NCBI RefSeq assembly: GCF_000368685.1
Contig: NZ_KB849628.1
Coordinates: 698,442 to 762,441, forward strand
Reading direction: 5' to 3'
Source of the DNA: Acinetobacter baylyi DSM 14961 = CIP 107474
GTDB lineage: Bacteria; Pseudomonadota; Gammaproteobacteria; Pseudomonadales; Moraxellaceae
Length of the DNA stretch: 64,000 bases
Shown here: piece by piece, positions 15,120-23,119 of the stretch
How the letters are laid out: every line of letters starts with the position of its first letter
How positions within the stretch are numbered: the first letter of the stretch is position 1
The notes under the pieces: model-generated
Databases searched by the model: none
The model's input: the letters and a program-made list of their open reading frames with translations, nothing else
What the model was told of the DNA's origin: nothing
Position numbers and translations under genes: made by a program

Positions 15120-16418
15120 TTAATGCTTTAACAACGACTGAGGCTCTATAGTTTGAACCATTTTCAAACGTTGGTCTGCATAAATATCGGTATAAGGTGC
15201 AAGTACGCGCATAAAACGATCGAAATAAAGCATTTGTTTGAACAACAAGGCAAAATCACGAGGAAATTTAATGCCATGACGCTCACCAACGGCCACCATG
15301 TCCAGCATAATATCATTAAGATCTGACGGTTTTGAGGCTAGAATTTCCTGTGGATCTGCAAGTAAGACGCCGCTAAACAAACGTTCTAAATCCTGAGCTA
15401 AAACCTGTGTATCAATCTGGGTTTTGGTCATCCCCATTTTCAGCATGTTTTCAGCCATAGCAGTGTAGTCAGTTTTTTGTAAGGCATCCATAAATGCCAG
15501 ACAAGCTGTCCAGACTTGTGGATTCAGTTGACCAACAATACCAAAGTCAATAAAACCGATTCGACCATCTTCAAGCAGCATTAAATTCCCTGCGTGTAAA
15601 TCTGCATGAAAACTTTTACATAGCATCAGACTACCAAACCAAGTATTCATGGCTGTAATCAGAACTTGAGATGGATCTTTGGCAAACTTTTTAACAATAT
15701 CAAAATCGGTCAGTGATACCCCATACAAACGCTCCATCGTTAAAATACGGCGTGTGGAAAACTGATGATAGACTTTAGGTGCAGTGGCTGCCTGATTGTT
15801 GGTAATTTTTAGATATTCAACAAAATCATCAAGATTCTGAGCTTCTTCAATAAAATCTACTTCACGAACCATACGGATCTTAATTTCTTCTACAATTTCT
15901 GAAAGAGAAGCAAACTTCACTTTAGGAATTGCTTTTTCAAGCATCTTTGTCGCCCAATGAACAACATTGAGGTCTGTATATAGAATCGTTTCTACACCTG
16001 GCTTTTGAACTTTAATCACAACGTCTTCGCCGGTTGTTAATCGCGCAGCATGAACCTGTGCAATCGAGGCAGAAGCTAGAGGTGTTTCATCAATCGATGC
16101 AAAAATCTGATTCAAATCACGGCCTTCAAATTCTTCAGCAAGTACTTCCTGAATATAGCTAAAAGGCAAAGTAGGCGTTTGATCTAAACAACCCTGAAAT
16201 TCTTCAACATATTCGCGTGGAAATAAAGATGGCGTGCTCGCAATAAACTGACCGAGTTTAATGTAAGTCGAACCGAGTGATTCAAAAGTTTCTCGCATTA
16301 GCTTGGCGTTGCTTGGTTTTTCAGTTGCATACTTGATGCCTGCTCTTGCCGCGACAAAAGCAGTTTCACCAATACGTGCAACAGATCGTAGCCCATCAAA
16401 CAGTATATTTTTTTTCAT
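15120..16418 (-). CDS. ABC1/UbiB-type atypical protein kinase (AarF domain)
   Basis: About 432 residues. The family signatures are present: YIKLGQFIASTPSLFP (the KxGQ motif), ASIAQVHAA with the Ala-rich nucleotide loop, VVIKVQKPG with the catalytic Lys, and HADLHAGNLM with GFIDFGIVGQL as catalytic and metal-binding segments. UbiB/COQ8-like proteins act as ATPases needed for ubiquinone or other lipid metabolism. This one lacks an obvious C-terminal transmembrane pair and is not in a ubiE-ubiJ-ubiB cluster, so it may be a paralogue rather than the main UbiB. An upstream in-frame TTG (16427) exists; I chose ATG 16418. Confidence 0.85.
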   Translation of the reverse strand: MKKNILFDGLRSVARIGETAFVAARAGIKYATEKPSNAKLMRETFESLGSTYIKLGQFIASTPSLFPREYVEEFQGCLDQTPTLPFSYIQEVLAEEFEGRDLNQIFASIDETPLASASIAQVHAARLTTGEDVVIKVQKPGVETILYTDLNVVHWATKMLEKAIPKVKFASLSEIVEEIKIRMVREVDFIEEAQNLDDFVEYLKITNNQAATAPKVYHQFSTRRILTMERLYGVSLTDFDIVKKFAKDPSQVLITAMNTWFGSLMLCKSFHADLHAGNLMLLEDGRIGFIDFGIVGQLNPQVWTACLAFMDALQKTDYTAMAENMLKMGMTKTQIDTQVLAQDLERLFSGVLLADPQEILASKPSDLNDIMLDMVAVGERHGIKFPRDFALLFKQMLYFDRFMRVLAPYTDIYADQRLKMVQTIEPQSLLKH

Positions 16419-16438
16419 ATGATTCAATATGGTTTAAC

Positions 16439-17251: not shown

Positions 17252-17482
17252 TCGCGATTATCCCAATTTATGAATACTAAATTTATAACTATAATTATAA
17301 AGAGAAGCTTGTGTCGTGAGATGTTTTATTTTGACAAAAGTAAGCTTTTACCCCAATATTTTATTTACTCTTTAACAGCCAAATAAAATCAAAGACTTAG
17401 TTAAAGTCAAAATAAAATGGGTATTTCCATTTTATTTGCTTTAATGGATTGTTTATATTAATTATTTTTGCACTTTCTTACT
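17252..17482 (+). promoter_or_regulatory. CRISPR leader with IHF consensus site
   Basis: A 231-bp AT-rich non-coding stretch immediately before the first repeat. The array's degenerate repeat is at the other end, so this is the leader side. It contains a perfect match to the IHF consensus WATCAANNNNTTR at 17387-17399 (AATCAAAGACTTA), 84 bp before the first repeat. IHF bending of the leader is known to guide spacer integration in type I-E and I-F systems. The site is seen; its function here is inference. Confidence 0.7.
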
Positions 17483-18385
17483 CTTCACTACCGCACAGGT
17501 AGCTTAGAAATCACACTGCACTTGCGATTGGGGCACTATCAACTTCACTACCGCACAGGTAGCTTAGAAAAATGTCGTGAACACTCAGACAGGCGGATAC
17601 CACTTCACTACCGCACAGGTAGCTTAGAAACGACAGAGCAAGACATCACTGATATGTCGAATTCTTCACTACCGCACAGGTAGCTTAGAAAGCAGTCGGA
17701 CAACTTCAATCGAACGCATCATCCTTCACTACCGCACAGGTAGCTTAGAAACTGCTTCTCGGTCATCCTTAAATCTGAATGAGCTTCACTACCGCACAGG
17801 TAGCTTAGAAATCACACTGCACTTGCGATTGGGGCACTATCAACTTCACTACCGCACAGGTAGCTTAGAAAAATGTCGTGAACACTCAGACAGGCGGATA
17901 CCACTTCACTACCGCACAGGTAGCTTAGAAACGACAGAGCAAGACATCACTGATATGTCGAATTCTTCACTACCGCACAGGTAGCTTAGAAAGCAGTCGG
18001 ACAACTTCAATCGAACGCATCATCCTTCACTACCGCACAGGTAGCTTAGAAACTGCTTCTCGGTCATCCTTAAATCTGAATGAGCTTCACTACCGCACAG
18101 GTAGCTTAGAAATCACACTGCACTTGCGATTGGGGCACTATCAACTTCACTACCGCACAGGTAGCTTAGAAAAATGTCGTGAACACTCAGACAGGCGGAT
18201 ACCACTTCACTACCGCACAGGTAGCTTAGAAACGACAGAGCAAGACATCACTGATATGTCGAATTCTTCACTACCGCACAGGTAGCTTAGAAAGCAGTCG
18301 GACAACTTCAATCGAACGCATCATCCTTCACTACCGCACAGGTAGCTTAGAAACTGCTTCTCGGTCATCCTTAAATCTGAATGAG
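17483..18385 (+). repeat. Exact tandem triplication of a five-spacer CRISPR block
   Basis: Three consecutive 301-bp units (17483-17783, 17784-18084, 18085-18385) carry the same five spacers in the same order, beginning TCACACTGCACTTGCG, AATGTCGTGAAC, CGACAGAGCAAG, GCAGTCGGACAA and CTGCTTCTCGG. I see no base differences between copies. The unit boundaries coincide with the repeats, as expected for unequal recombination between repeats. Confidence 0.95.
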
Positions 18386-19070
18386 CTTCACTACCGCACA
18401 GGTAGCTTAGAAATTCCACCAATCAAGAGTGGATTGGTCAATAGTCTTCACTACCGCACAGGTAGCTTAGAAAAGTCGACCGCGAGACGGGAAAAAGTAC
18501 GAACACTTCACTACCGCACAGGTAGCTTAGAAACGTAGACTGCCACCACCGCACCCCCATACATTCTTCACTACCGCACAGGTAGCTTAGAAATCGCGCA
18601 ATCCATCGCGAGGGGCCTATTCGAGCTTCACTACCGCACAGGTAGCTTAGAAAAATGAGAAAATCAAACCACCCATGATGATCGTCTTCACTACCGCACA
18701 GGTAGCTTAGAAATACTCGAACTTGTCTGTCATATTGCCCTTACCACTACCGCACAGGTAGCTTAGAAATGAATACTCAAATGACAATAAACAGGATAAA
18801 GCTTCACTACCGCACAGGTAGCTTAGAAATGTGAACAAATCCGTTGTAAGCCGCGCCTTATCTTCACTACCGCACAGGTAGCTTAGAAAATTTAAAAGCC
18901 ACTCATCTGACACACCTAAAACTTCACTACCGCACAGGTAGCTTAGAAATTATCGAAGTATTCTGCTTTGGGTGCGGCAATGCTTCACTACCGCACAGGT
19001 AGCTTAGAAAACCAGAAATGATTCCAGATATTCCAGATGAATCCTCACTATCGCACAGGTAGCTTGATCA
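17483..19070 (+). CRISPR. Type I-F-like CRISPR array, 27 repeats and 26 spacers, no cas genes in window
   Basis: The 28-bp repeat begins CTTCACTACC and ends GGTAGCTTAGAAA, with an internal CTACC/GGTAG hairpin. Length, hairpin and the TTAGAAA end match type I-F repeats. Spacers are 32 bp (33 bp for spacer 3 and its copies and for spacer 25), giving a 60-bp period. Repeats start at 17483, 17543, 17603, 17664 and 17724, and so on. The last repeat (19043-19070) is degenerate at its 3' end (GATCA replaces AGAAA) and has two other changes, marking the old end. Repeat 22 (18745-18769) lacks its first three bases and the preceding spacer is short. The first 15 spacers are three copies of one five-spacer block, so only 16 spacers are distinct. 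No cas gene lies in the 17 kb before or 45 kb after. Confidence 0.98.
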
Positions 19071-19193: not shown

Positions 19194-21176
19194 ATGACTG
19201 CATGGCAACAACTTGGGATAGAACCCACTACAAATTTAAGAGAAATTAAAAAAGCATATGCTGTAAAGCTCAAGCAAATTGATCAAGATACTCAACCAGA
19301 TCAGTTTATTGCATTGAGAGAAGCCCTTCAAACTGCCCAATATGAAGCAGAATATGGACTGTTTGATCAAGAAGAGAATCAAGATTCTCTATTTAATGAT
19401 GATCAGCCACTAAATTTTAATGAGCACACTGAATCCGCTCAAGAAAATGAAATCAATCAATCATCAGACACTTTACTTGAAGAAATTTATCTTGCCATTC
19501 AGCAACGTATCGTCGAGCAAGATATTCACTTCAATATTCGAGAAGCATTGCAAAAATTTGCTGATCATCTTGATATAGTGAGTGAACAGGCAACGCGATT
19601 ATCTTATATTGAACGCATGGATCAATTATTACTTGATCACGGTCTCGAAGACTTTCTGGGCTATGTAGCAGAGTCATCAAATCATTTCACTATAGCATCT
19701 GATCAAATTGATGAGCTTTACAGTCATTCAGAAACGGTCATTGATCTCAATGATGAACAATCTGATCAGAATATCACTCAAGAAATTGATCCTGTCATTA
19801 ATGAGCTTTATCAAGTCAAGCAGTTACTGTGGGAAGATAATATTAGTGATGACGTATTTGAAAGATTTAGCTTACTACTCAATCAGCAGTTTGATCTACC
19901 GCTTGGGCAGCAAATTGAGATAAAAGACCAGCTCATGAGTGCTGTGGCAGAGCTCAGAGTAGATAGGATGAGCCCGCAATATTTCAGATTTCTTGAACTT
20001 TGGAATGATGTATATCCAGATGATGTACATGAATACAACGAGCATTATTATAGTCGTATACTTCAGCAACGCCTGCATGAATATTTACAAAAACGTGATT
20101 TATTTAAATCCTTATCGCATGATGATTATTCTTTCTTAGAGCATCTTTCAGGTTCACAAAGCTTTCGTCCATTTAAGATGCTGCATCTTCAGAAACAACT
20201 CAAACACCACCATCCAAAACAGCAAGTCATGGATGTTCTTGATCAATTTGAGATAAATGATACCGCATCCAATATTAACTATAACTTTCTTAAAAGTATC
20301 AACCAAATTAAACACTTTGTATTAATGAATTTAGTGTTTTCAGTCGTAACTTTTTTCGTATTGGATCAGTTTTTATCAAACTTGCTTACACAGAGAACGC
20401 TTATTTTAATCTCAATTGGCGTGTTTATCTTATTTACATTGATCATTCAGCCTATGATTCATGCAAAAATTCTGGCTTTCCCAAATCGTGATGACCTCTT
20501 ATATCGTTATCAAAAAATCTGGTTTATCAGTGGTTTTCTCATGTGCATTGCCGCTTCAGCTCTACCAGCGATTTTGTATTCTTCACTGAGTTATTTATGG
20601 CTGATTGCTACAATTATTCTGTTGGGTTGCTTAAAATTAGATGCGCATAAAAATATGAATCGTATCTTTCAAAGCGCTTATATTAAATATGACTATCTCA
20701 TGATGGGAATAGGTATAGCAATTTTGTGTTTTGGATTGAGTTTTGTTTTTTATACTTTGGGTCAACCGCATCAGCCTTGGCTCATCAGTTATAGTTTGAT
20801 TCCGATCAGTTGCTTGCTATTTCCAGATTCATTTCGTCCGTTGTTTTATAGCTTTGGCTCTGGTAAAAATACGGATGATTTAAACGAGCAACAAATTATA
20901 CGTAAAACAATCATCATCATTTTGCTTCGAATCGCTTTTGTTGGATCGGTTGGCTATTTTGTCATATCAGAAAATTCACAGCACTATATTTACGCCGCCT
21001 GCCTAACCTTTGTAGGATTATTCTTTACGTTATTCAATACCAAAAAGTTTTCTTCTTTTATCAAATATACAACTTACATCGCCACAATTATTGTGGGATT
21101 TCATGCGATCATTATTAGTATTATCACTGGATTTTATCTATATAAAAGCTTAGAAATAAAAAAACAGTTGAGTTAA
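19194..21176 (+). CDS. Membrane J-domain-like protein, probable HscC co-chaperone
   Basis: 660 residues. The N-terminus (AWQQLGIEPTTNLREIKKAYAVKLKQ, then QFIALREALQTAQ) has the helix II and helix III pattern of a J domain, but the loop between reads IDQDTQPDQ with no HPD tripeptide. Residues about 60-370 are acidic and helical without recognised domains. From about residue 375 on there are some nine or ten hydrophobic segments, so the protein is an inner-membrane protein with a cytosolic J-like head. It is convergent with hscC. In E. coli HscC has membrane-bound J partners, DjlB and DjlC, which supports the pairing. Without HPD, classical Hsp70 ATPase stimulation would be doubtful. The partner role is inference. 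Confidence 0.75.
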   Translation: MTAWQQLGIEPTTNLREIKKAYAVKLKQIDQDTQPDQFIALREALQTAQYEAEYGLFDQEENQDSLFNDDQPLNFNEHTESAQENEINQSSDTLLEEIYLAIQQRIVEQDIHFNIREALQKFADHLDIVSEQATRLSYIERMDQLLLDHGLEDFLGYVAESSNHFTIASDQIDELYSHSETVIDLNDEQSDQNITQEIDPVINELYQVKQLLWEDNISDDVFERFSLLLNQQFDLPLGQQIEIKDQLMSAVAELRVDRMSPQYFRFLELWNDVYPDDVHEYNEHYYSRILQQRLHEYLQKRDLFKSLSHDDYSFLEHLSGSQSFRPFKMLHLQKQLKHHHPKQQVMDVLDQFEINDTASNINYNFLKSINQIKHFVLMNLVFSVVTFFVLDQFLSNLLTQRTLILISIGVFILFTLIIQPMIHAKILAFPNRDDLLYRYQKIWFISGFLMCIAASALPAILYSSLSYLWLIATIILLGCLKLDAHKNMNRIFQSAYIKYDYLMMGIGIAILCFGLSFVFYTLGQPHQPWLISYSLIPISCLLFPDSFRPLFYSFGSGKNTDDLNEQQIIRKTIIIILLRIAFVGSVGYFVISENSQHYIYAACLTFVGLFFTLFNTKKFSSFIKYTTYIATIIVGFHAIIISIITGFYLYKSLEIKKQLS

Positions 21177-21189
21177 TCGTACTGAATAA

Positions 21190-21223
21190 ATCGAGTGTCT
21201 GGAAATTTTTACAGGCACTCGAT
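21190..21223. terminator. Hairpin between convergent J-domain and hscC genes
   Basis: Arms ATCGAGTGTCTG and CAGGCACTCGAT pair over 12 bp with one G-T wobble and a 10-base loop. No long T-tract follows on either strand, so termination efficiency is uncertain. Confidence 0.45.
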
Positions 21224-21285
21224 CAAATAAGATGTAACGATTCAGGAAATAGTTTTCATGATCGTCGTTAGTCGCCCAAAACTAT

Positions 21286-22986
21286 TTAATATTCCTCAAA
21301 CAAACTCAAATCTTCAACTTCATTTAAGAAAGCCTCAAAATATTGTCTGGCTTCACGGATTTGTCGTTCATCTTGTTGATTGAGAATTTGATTAAAACGC
21401 TCCGTACGATCACCAATTTGATAACGAAGATCACCCGTTCGTTCACTGTACAGACGCTCGGCACGTAATAGTAAACTCTTATTCATCAGGTTATCTCGTG
21501 GGTGGATTTTAAGTGATTGAAGTTGTAAACGCGCTTTTTCAACGTCTTCAGCAGACATGACGCTTTGATGATTCACCACCACTTTTTGCAGTTTCTCACC
21601 CGTCGCTGGAACGTCGACATCGACATCCAGAATTCCGTTAGGATTATAGGAAAATCTGACATCGATTGATAAATAATCGTCATTTGGAGGTAACGGTACA
21701 GTTAAAGAGCCCAGAGAGACATTTTCTCGACACAATCGATGTTCACCCTGATAAATTTGAACCACAATCTCTCTTTGGCCTTTATTCATTGCAGTGTAGG
21801 TATTGACCTTACTGGCTGGAATGACAATATTACGCTCCAGAATAGGTGAAAACTGACCTTCATCGCCGACAGCAATCCCTAAACTAAATGGACACACATC
21901 GGTCAAAACCACTTCTTTTAAGGATTGATCTTTGGCTTTTAGACCAGCCTGAATGCATGCTCCCCGCACAATGGCTTCATCTGGCTGAACACTGGTTGAA
22001 GGGAAACGTCCAAACAACTTGGTGACCAATTTGCGTACAGCAGGTATACGCGTTGCCCCACCGACCATGATAATCTGGTCTACTTGCTTAGGTAAAATTC
22101 GGGCATCACGCAGAGCTCGTTCAAGCGGACGGCGTAATCTTAATAGTAATGGCTCTGCCCAGTTGGTCAAATCGTCCTGTGAAATTTCAAATGTTGCTTC
22201 ATGATCATTCCATTTGAAATTAAGTTGGGTAGACGTCTGCTTACTCAGTACATGTAAACAATATTGAGCCTTGGCTTTTAATGCAATTTCAACATCATAA
22301 GGAATCGTAGTTTCGTTATATCCGAAGATAGAAGCATTCTTCTTCCAATACTGTTTCATGATTAACTGTACAAAATCGTCTCCACCTAAGTAATTGTCTC
22401 CTGCACTGGCTCGCACCTCAATAACACCATCAAATAGCTCAACAATTGAGACGTCAAAAGTACCGCCGCCTAAGTCAAAAATGAGAAAACAGCTATCATC
22501 ACTCTGACCAAGCCCATAAGCCAGAGCCGCAGCAGTCGGTTCATTAATCAGGCGACTCACTTTCAAACCAGCCAGTTCAGCAGCAGAAATTGTGGCTTGG
22601 CGTTGTATATCATTAAAATAAGCAGGTACAGTAATGACTGCTTCATCAATTTCACATTGCAAGGCATGCTCGGCATCCTGTTTAAGCGACCGTAAAATAA
22701 GTGATGAAAGTTCAACCGCTGAAAAACTACGATCCCCTAATTTTAATGGTTTAGATGTACCCATCAAACGTTTAAAACTGGTCAAAACATCCCGACCTGA
22801 AGCACGTAGCTCTAAAGCAGCCTGCCCAATCAGAATTTGCTCATCTTCATCCATTGCAATTGCAGAAGGCGTTAATTTATTGCCATATGCATTTTCAATG
22901 AGTCGGGGTTGACCATTTTCAAAAACACCTACAAGTGAGTTACTTGTTCCAAGATCGATACCGATTAAAGGTTTTATTTCTGTCAT
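21286..22986 (-). CDS. hscC: Hsp70-family chaperone HscC
   Basis: 566 residues, shorter than DnaK (about 640) and close to HscC. The ATPase domain is complete: IGIDLGTSNSLVGVF, VPAYFNDIQRQAT, INEPTAAALAYG, FDLGGGTFDVSI and MVGGATRIPAVRKL. A substrate-binding domain follows (VCPFSLGIAVGDEG, YNPNGILDVDV), but the C-terminal lid is short and lacks an EEVD-like end. HscC (Hsc62) is a specialised Hsp70 that does not replace DnaK. The gene is convergent with the membrane J-like gene, suggesting a dedicated pair. Confidence 0.9.
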   Translation of the reverse strand: MTEIKPLIGIDLGTSNSLVGVFENGQPRLIENAYGNKLTPSAIAMDEDEQILIGQAALELRASGRDVLTSFKRLMGTSKPLKLGDRSFSAVELSSLILRSLKQDAEHALQCEIDEAVITVPAYFNDIQRQATISAAELAGLKVSRLINEPTAAALAYGLGQSDDSCFLIFDLGGGTFDVSIVELFDGVIEVRASAGDNYLGGDDFVQLIMKQYWKKNASIFGYNETTIPYDVEIALKAKAQYCLHVLSKQTSTQLNFKWNDHEATFEISQDDLTNWAEPLLLRLRRPLERALRDARILPKQVDQIIMVGGATRIPAVRKLVTKLFGRFPSTSVQPDEAIVRGACIQAGLKAKDQSLKEVVLTDVCPFSLGIAVGDEGQFSPILERNIVIPASKVNTYTAMNKGQREIVVQIYQGEHRLCRENVSLGSLTVPLPPNDDYLSIDVRFSYNPNGILDVDVDVPATGEKLQKVVVNHQSVMSAEDVEKARLQLQSLKIHPRDNLMNKSLLLRAERLYSERTGDLRYQIGDRTERFNQILNQQDERQIREARQYFEAFLNEVEDLSLFEEY

Positions 22987-23119
22987 TTTTTATCAAATAT
23001 TAAAAGTTTTGTTGAGAAAATATCAATTCTAGCTATCAACATTCTAGCCAAGAAAAATACGTTTGGCGACTTTAAAGCATCACTTTTAACATAGGTATAT
23101 TGTAAAAAATGCATATACT

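Follow-up and report, generated by a model that had tools for sequence, protein, structure and literature searches.

In a CRISPR array of Acinetobacter baylyi DSM 14961, the five spacers next to the leader were found as a block in three identical tandem copies. We regard amplification of this leader-proximal block by misalignment between repeats, in a satellite (cas-less) type I-F-like array, as the likely origin of the triplication. The array lies within a 64,000-nucleotide stretch of DNA, which was analyzed as a whole and is referred to here as the window. It occupies positions 17483 to 19070 on the + strand and consists of 26 repeats followed by one degenerate terminal repeat. The repeat core is CACTACCGCACAGGTAGCTTAGAAA, and 25 of the 26 repeats are identical over 28 nt. 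Sixteen distinct spacers are present; u1 to u5 keep their order as spacer numbers 1 to 5, 6 to 10, and 11 to 15, and eleven single-copy spacers follow. The polarity of the array was assigned from the degenerate repeat on its right and the AT-rich leader on its left. Its features are as follows.

17308..17482, + strand: leader, AT-rich, its sequence conserved at this site in two further species (the 175 bp before repeat 1 align well with the leaders of L128 and L040; polarity from the degenerate terminal repeat)
17367..17377, + strand: boxA-like motif ACTCTTTAACA within the leader, read in the sequence at the start of the leader pattern match; putative function
17483..17783, + strand: block copy 1, five repeat-spacer units, with u1 to u5 of 32, 32, 33, 32, and 32 nt
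17784..18084, + strand: block copy 2, identical to copy 1
18085..18385, + strand: block copy 3, identical to copy 1
18386..19042, + strand: the eleven repeat-spacer units that follow, each with a single-copy spacer (u6 to u16)
18714..18769, + strand: u11 (28 nt) and the following repeat, in which the first three bases are TAC for CTT; spacing 56 instead of 60
19043..19070, + strand: degenerate terminal repeat, marking the trailer end

The available text of PMC7862264 discusses boxA elements that precede natural CRISPR arrays. No promoter was established for the window array, as promoter-like sites in its region were at chance level (4 found versus 3.8 expected). Judging from the shortened spacing at u11, a small deletion probably crossed the spacer/repeat border there.

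The exact triplication reported in a preliminary description of this DNA was borne out in two ways. Tandem Repeats Finder returned a period of 301, 3.1 copies, and 100% matches from 17483 to 18414, and direct comparison of the three 301-bp units listed above found them identical. At an offset of 301, identity ran rightward for 631 bases, made up of 602 bases, the next 28-nt repeat, and one chance base, so that it ended one chance base past the repeat preceding u6. Leftward, into the leader, it extended over 0 bases and stopped exactly at the border between leader and repeat 1. The block copies are identical, lie in tandem, and have their borders in repeats, as in a tandem spacer-block duplication, and the window sequence is free of any N. 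Given the length of the identity, a chance origin of three identical 301-bp units is excluded. The lack of base differences had also been read as a sign of a recent event. The zero differences were confirmed, but over 301 bp they make a weak clock.

The repeats agree with those of type I-F systems, being 28 nt long, with a 5-bp stem (CUACC/GGUAG in the RNA fold) and a 5-nt loop, and 25 of them were assigned to the Rfam family CRISPR-DR4. Spacers of type I-F are about 32 nt long, with a 5' CC at the protospacer; of the 16 distinct spacers in the window array, 15 measured 32 to 33 nt and one 28 nt, and CC was seen at the protospacer of u2, the single spacer with an exact viral match. CC is the protospacer-adjacent motif (PAM) of the A. 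baumannii I-Fb system according to the accessible part of PMC4338279. A matching cas operon, which would complete the type I-F picture, was not found beside the array.

The genome, with a completeness rating of 100%, comprises 3.61 Mb on 10 contigs. The window array adjoins a ThiF-family gene. The same flank carries arrays in A. soli, in an Acinetobacter known from a metagenome assembly (L046/L128), and in two more representatives of the genus (L038 and L039); the flanks of these same-site relatives were 73 to 78% identical to that in the window. Since arrays recur there in relatives, it is a conserved satellite site for CRISPR arrays. No spacers common to the window array and the same-site relatives were found; the comparison of u6 to u16 covered the window, three stretches of the same genome, and 13 loci of relatives. 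A third, small array of 7 repeats is present elsewhere in the genome (C7:683.5 kb). Two genes lie downstream of the window array (19194 to 22986), one encoding a 660-aa product that matched no Pfam family and one belonging to the Hsp70 family. The end of the A. soli array (L040) directly joins a match to window position 23061 onward, and both genes are therefore absent or diverged in that species.

A Pfam scan of nine neighboring proteins gave no Cas match. For nine window proteins, PADLOC returned only E1-E2 matches, from the ThiF gene, and a weak match to PD-T4-6 (E value of 8.1e-4, 15120 to 16427). Searches of the whole genome detected one Csy4, one Cas1, and one Csy3, all in one operon. 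This operon, the sole cas operon detected, spans C7:783.6-792.4 kb, some 66 kb away from the end of the window array, and encodes Cas3f, Csy2, Csy3, Csy4, Cas1f, and a probable Csy1. Its Csy4 scored about 1 bit below the NCBIfam cut-off and above that of Pfam, and the Pfam match of the probable Csy1 was below its cut-off. The repeat core of the array next to the operon forms the stem UCAUC/GAUGA, versus CUACC/GGUAG in the window array, and the operon is of a divergent I-F type. The distance to this only operon, its divergent type, and the different repeat stem of its own array together make it probable that the window array is an orphan with respect to its repeat type. The label I-Fb was considered for the cas-adjacent repeat type and rejected, since PMC4338279, in the part available, gives another I-Fb repeat. 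Between cas3f and the probable csy1, the operon contains a small gene with a KilAC phage antirepressor domain (PF03374, E value of 5.5e-13; L012 11258-11617), upstream of which a repeat-like 28-mer was noticed (about L012 11023). A situation like that of the A. baylyi genome was seen in genome G021, where the ThiF-site array (L038) and the cas-adjacent array (L130) have different repeat stems and one Csy4 was found.

Across the genus, Csy4 was detected in 71 of 175 genomes, with a best hit of at least 141 bits in 53 of them and of 62 to 95 bits in 18, the A. baylyi genome included. Leader-like sequences of the window's type numbered 100, spread over 70 of the 175 genomes, and, judged by coordinates, often directly followed a high-scoring csy4. 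Five arrays of this type were located in the 18 genomes with low-scoring Csy4, and eight in genomes without a Csy4 match. The median number of distinct spacers was 8 for these 13 arrays versus 37.5 for the 76 arrays of genomes with high-scoring Csy4 (Mann-Whitney P = 5e-5, a guide only, given that the genomes are related and not all 76 arrays adjoin their cas genes). The window array has 16.

The repeats are spaced 60 bp apart and, being identical over 28 nt, provide many sites for misaligned replication or unequal exchange. Because nearly all of them are identical, any pair can misalign. The block would first have been directly duplicated through unequal exchange, or misaligned replication, involving repeats 1 and 6, and a second exchange, aided by 301 bp of perfect homology, would have supplied the third copy. 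The same homology would ease further gain or loss of blocks. The point of exchange is invisible, as all repeats in the block are identical, and an excised circle that reinserted would be expected to give the same sequence outcome here as unequal exchange. We infer the recombination route, the order of the steps, their timing after the last spacer insertion, and selective neutrality. Unequal recombination between repeats, the mechanism put forward in the preliminary description, is still the best explanation, together with replication misalignment, and it finds support in the available parts of PMC11472070, PMC7708916, and PMC4338279.

It should be noted that the copy number comes from one assembly with signs of short-read scaffolding, which counts against this explanation, and an artefact in copy number, a caveat of the preliminary description itself, is a live concern. 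In such a case, the u5-repeat-u1 junction would be real, arising from a doubled block or from a minority variant of the culture, and the assembler would have passed through the 301-bp loop arbitrarily often. In the cas-adjacent array on the same contig, a run of 10 N (L012 19219-19228, C7 about 795.2 kb) is flanked on each side by the same 41 bases, which comprise a spacer end, a repeat, and a spacer start. At this point the pieces joined in the scaffold probably overlap, with one repeat shown twice, and a gap flanked in this way suggests a short-read scaffold. Short reads would be unable to count a perfect tandem of 903 bp; the accessible text of PMC7708916 states this problem for duplicated CRISPR blocks. 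However, the remainder of the window array was resolved without N, and the junction requires only reads that cross a 28-nt repeat. For these reasons the junction is probably real, and two or more copies of the block are therefore likely, with exactly three being the assembler's figure. Short-read assemblers usually collapse such repeats, which also speaks against the artefact. All in all, we consider an artefact of this kind unlikely.

The survey of spacer duplication covered 89 I-F-type arrays, that of the window among them, drawn from 61 Acinetobacter genomes. When up to two mismatches were allowed, one or more spacers were duplicated in 22 of the 89 arrays and in 21 of the 88 that remained when the window array was left out. 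Copy gain is thus frequent, contrary to the earlier statement that arrays usually lose rather than amplify blocks. Perfect tandem duplications occurred in 13 of the 89 arrays (12 of 88 without the window array), and among the other 12 arrays the tandem block was a single spacer in 11 and a pair of spacers in L090. Three features were seen in the window array alone among the 89: a spacer in three copies, a duplication extending to spacer 1, and a perfect tandem block longer than two spacers. That no other surveyed array has a third copy or so long a perfect tandem block counts against amplification by repeat misalignment. This uniqueness may partly be due to ascertainment, because many of the surveyed assemblies have many contigs, in which long perfect tandems may be collapsed. 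Taken together, the block in the window array was probably truly amplified in tandem, by an ordinary type of event that here reaches the extreme of the range seen in the genus.

The 89 arrays were composed of 86 from the 100 leader-like loci, L037, which was found by its repeat, and second arrays in L075 and L096. The detector found no array in the other 14 loci, two of which, L112 and L140, spanned just 250 and 260 bases. Left out were L044, which overlaps L134 and has duplicates; L009 and L012, which are the other arrays of the A. baylyi genome and have no duplicates; and L041 and L042, which belong to other families, the former with and the latter without duplicates. Four of the 89 arrays end within 90 bases of the end of the retrieved stretch and may be cut, and very short arrays such as L050 are included. 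L127 and L137 are nonindependent, with 88 spacers common to both. These two I-F arrays lie far apart in the one-contig genome G174, where the second csy4 was matched in two pieces; apparently, the CRISPR-cas locus was duplicated there and one copy is decaying. In genome G190, the arrays L131 and L132 have six spacers in common, which may reflect exchange between arrays.

The start of the block at repeat 1 invites a different explanation, in which the adaptation machinery, through nicks or breaks left at the border of leader and first repeat by failed spacer insertion, provoked the exchange. Cas1f and Cas3f are encoded elsewhere in the genome, and in the 21 other arrays with duplications the first duplicated spacer was at position 3 or later. 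Yet this is one case, and an array with 16 spacers and 17 repeats offers 12 placements for a block of five spacers, which gives a start at repeat 1 a chance of about 1 in 12. Cas1f, although present, is not known to act on the leader and repeat type of the window array. We give this origin hardly any credence. With such a chance, a start at repeat 1 is unremarkable and a special mechanism is unneeded, and the leader-end position is no signal of the selection that the preliminary description had considered. It is likewise very improbable that leader-end amplification is a distinct process, in which adaptation breaks or selection for CRISPR RNA (crRNA) output expand the newest block even in an array that relies in trans on another I-F subtype.

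A further alternative is amplification under selection, in which extra copies of the block were retained for the larger crRNA supply they give against a phage or plasmid that was present. The block is leader proximal, where transcription starts, and all 32 bases of u2 were matched in a viral contig, after a CC and inside a gene whose product has muramidase and peptidoglycan-binding domains. This viral piece also carries a baseplate J gene and has a 95-base similarity to Fels-2-like phages. On the other hand, u1, u3, u4, and u5 had no exact viral match, and nothing ties the five spacers to one invader. Viral contigs were searched by pattern with u1 (32 nt), u3 and u4 (28 nt), and u5 (27 nt), and with 20-mers of u1, u4, and u5; neither search gave a match. 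The comparison with phages and plasmids covered u1 to u5. With the 301-bp unit as the query, nothing was found in the phage collection, and 19 plasmid records were matched in repeat-spaced pieces, a pattern which suggests that these pieces are CRISPR arrays. Self-targeting by u1 to u5 was rejected at the sensitivity of the 301-bp query, for which all nine matches in the same genome lay in CRISPR arrays. The only Csy4 detected sits in the divergent I-F operon, whose array has the other repeat stem. It is a candidate for serving the window array in trans. As the only Csy4 and Cas1 detected belong to that type, a threefold crRNA dose from the window array is unproven. An origin by selection for dose is, in our judgment, most improbable.

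Amplification by repeat misalignment has parallels in other arrays. According to the available text of PMC7708916, the CRISPR locus of Mycobacterium tuberculosis underwent 16 independent tandem duplications, of which 5 were multiunit. As in the window array, neighboring repeat-spacer units were duplicated in tandem and in their original order; this was ascribed to repeat recombination, in an array without new spacer acquisition. An exact leader-end triplication is not mentioned in that text. In A. baumannii, a three-spacer duplication distinguishes two strain types (PMC4338279, in the part available). This I-Fb array belongs to the same genus and CRISPR class and shares 28-nt repeats, 32-nt spacers, and the CC PAM, but has two copies, lies beside its own cas genes, and has another repeat sequence. 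The accessible sections on SpacerPlacer, applied to CRISPRCasdb (PMC11472070), report duplications in 162 of 333 array groups (171 without), name replication misalignment as the mechanism, and give a mean deletion block length of 2.7. Duplication is nonetheless a rare event per spacer there (695 of 24,090), and three-copy blocks are not discussed in those sections. In group B Streptococcus, spacer duplication was found in 73 isolates (35.6%), as stated in the available portion of PMC5641575. Orphan arrays of the A. calcoaceticus-baumannii complex, as far as PMC11035748 is accessible, resemble the window array in being cas-less Acinetobacter arrays, some in genomes with a cas operon elsewhere; the site in the window and spacer duplication are not mentioned in that portion. 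Multispacer duplications are therefore already known from these sources, Acinetobacter included, and are ascribed to recombination or replication misalignment between repeats. No report of a triplication of CRISPR spacers or repeat-spacer units, or of duplication of a leader-proximal spacer block, was found in the open-license literature, and such a report could be published elsewhere.

If the three copies are real, the window array is a clean natural example of growth of a CRISPR array without new spacers. It would then help to calibrate models of array evolution, in which duplications are exceptions. After loss of the matching cas genes, a position at the leader end need not imply recent acquisition. 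The effect on defense itself is probably small. These findings suggest that the triplicated block is an unusually neat instance of an ordinary event, most likely unequal recombination between repeats.
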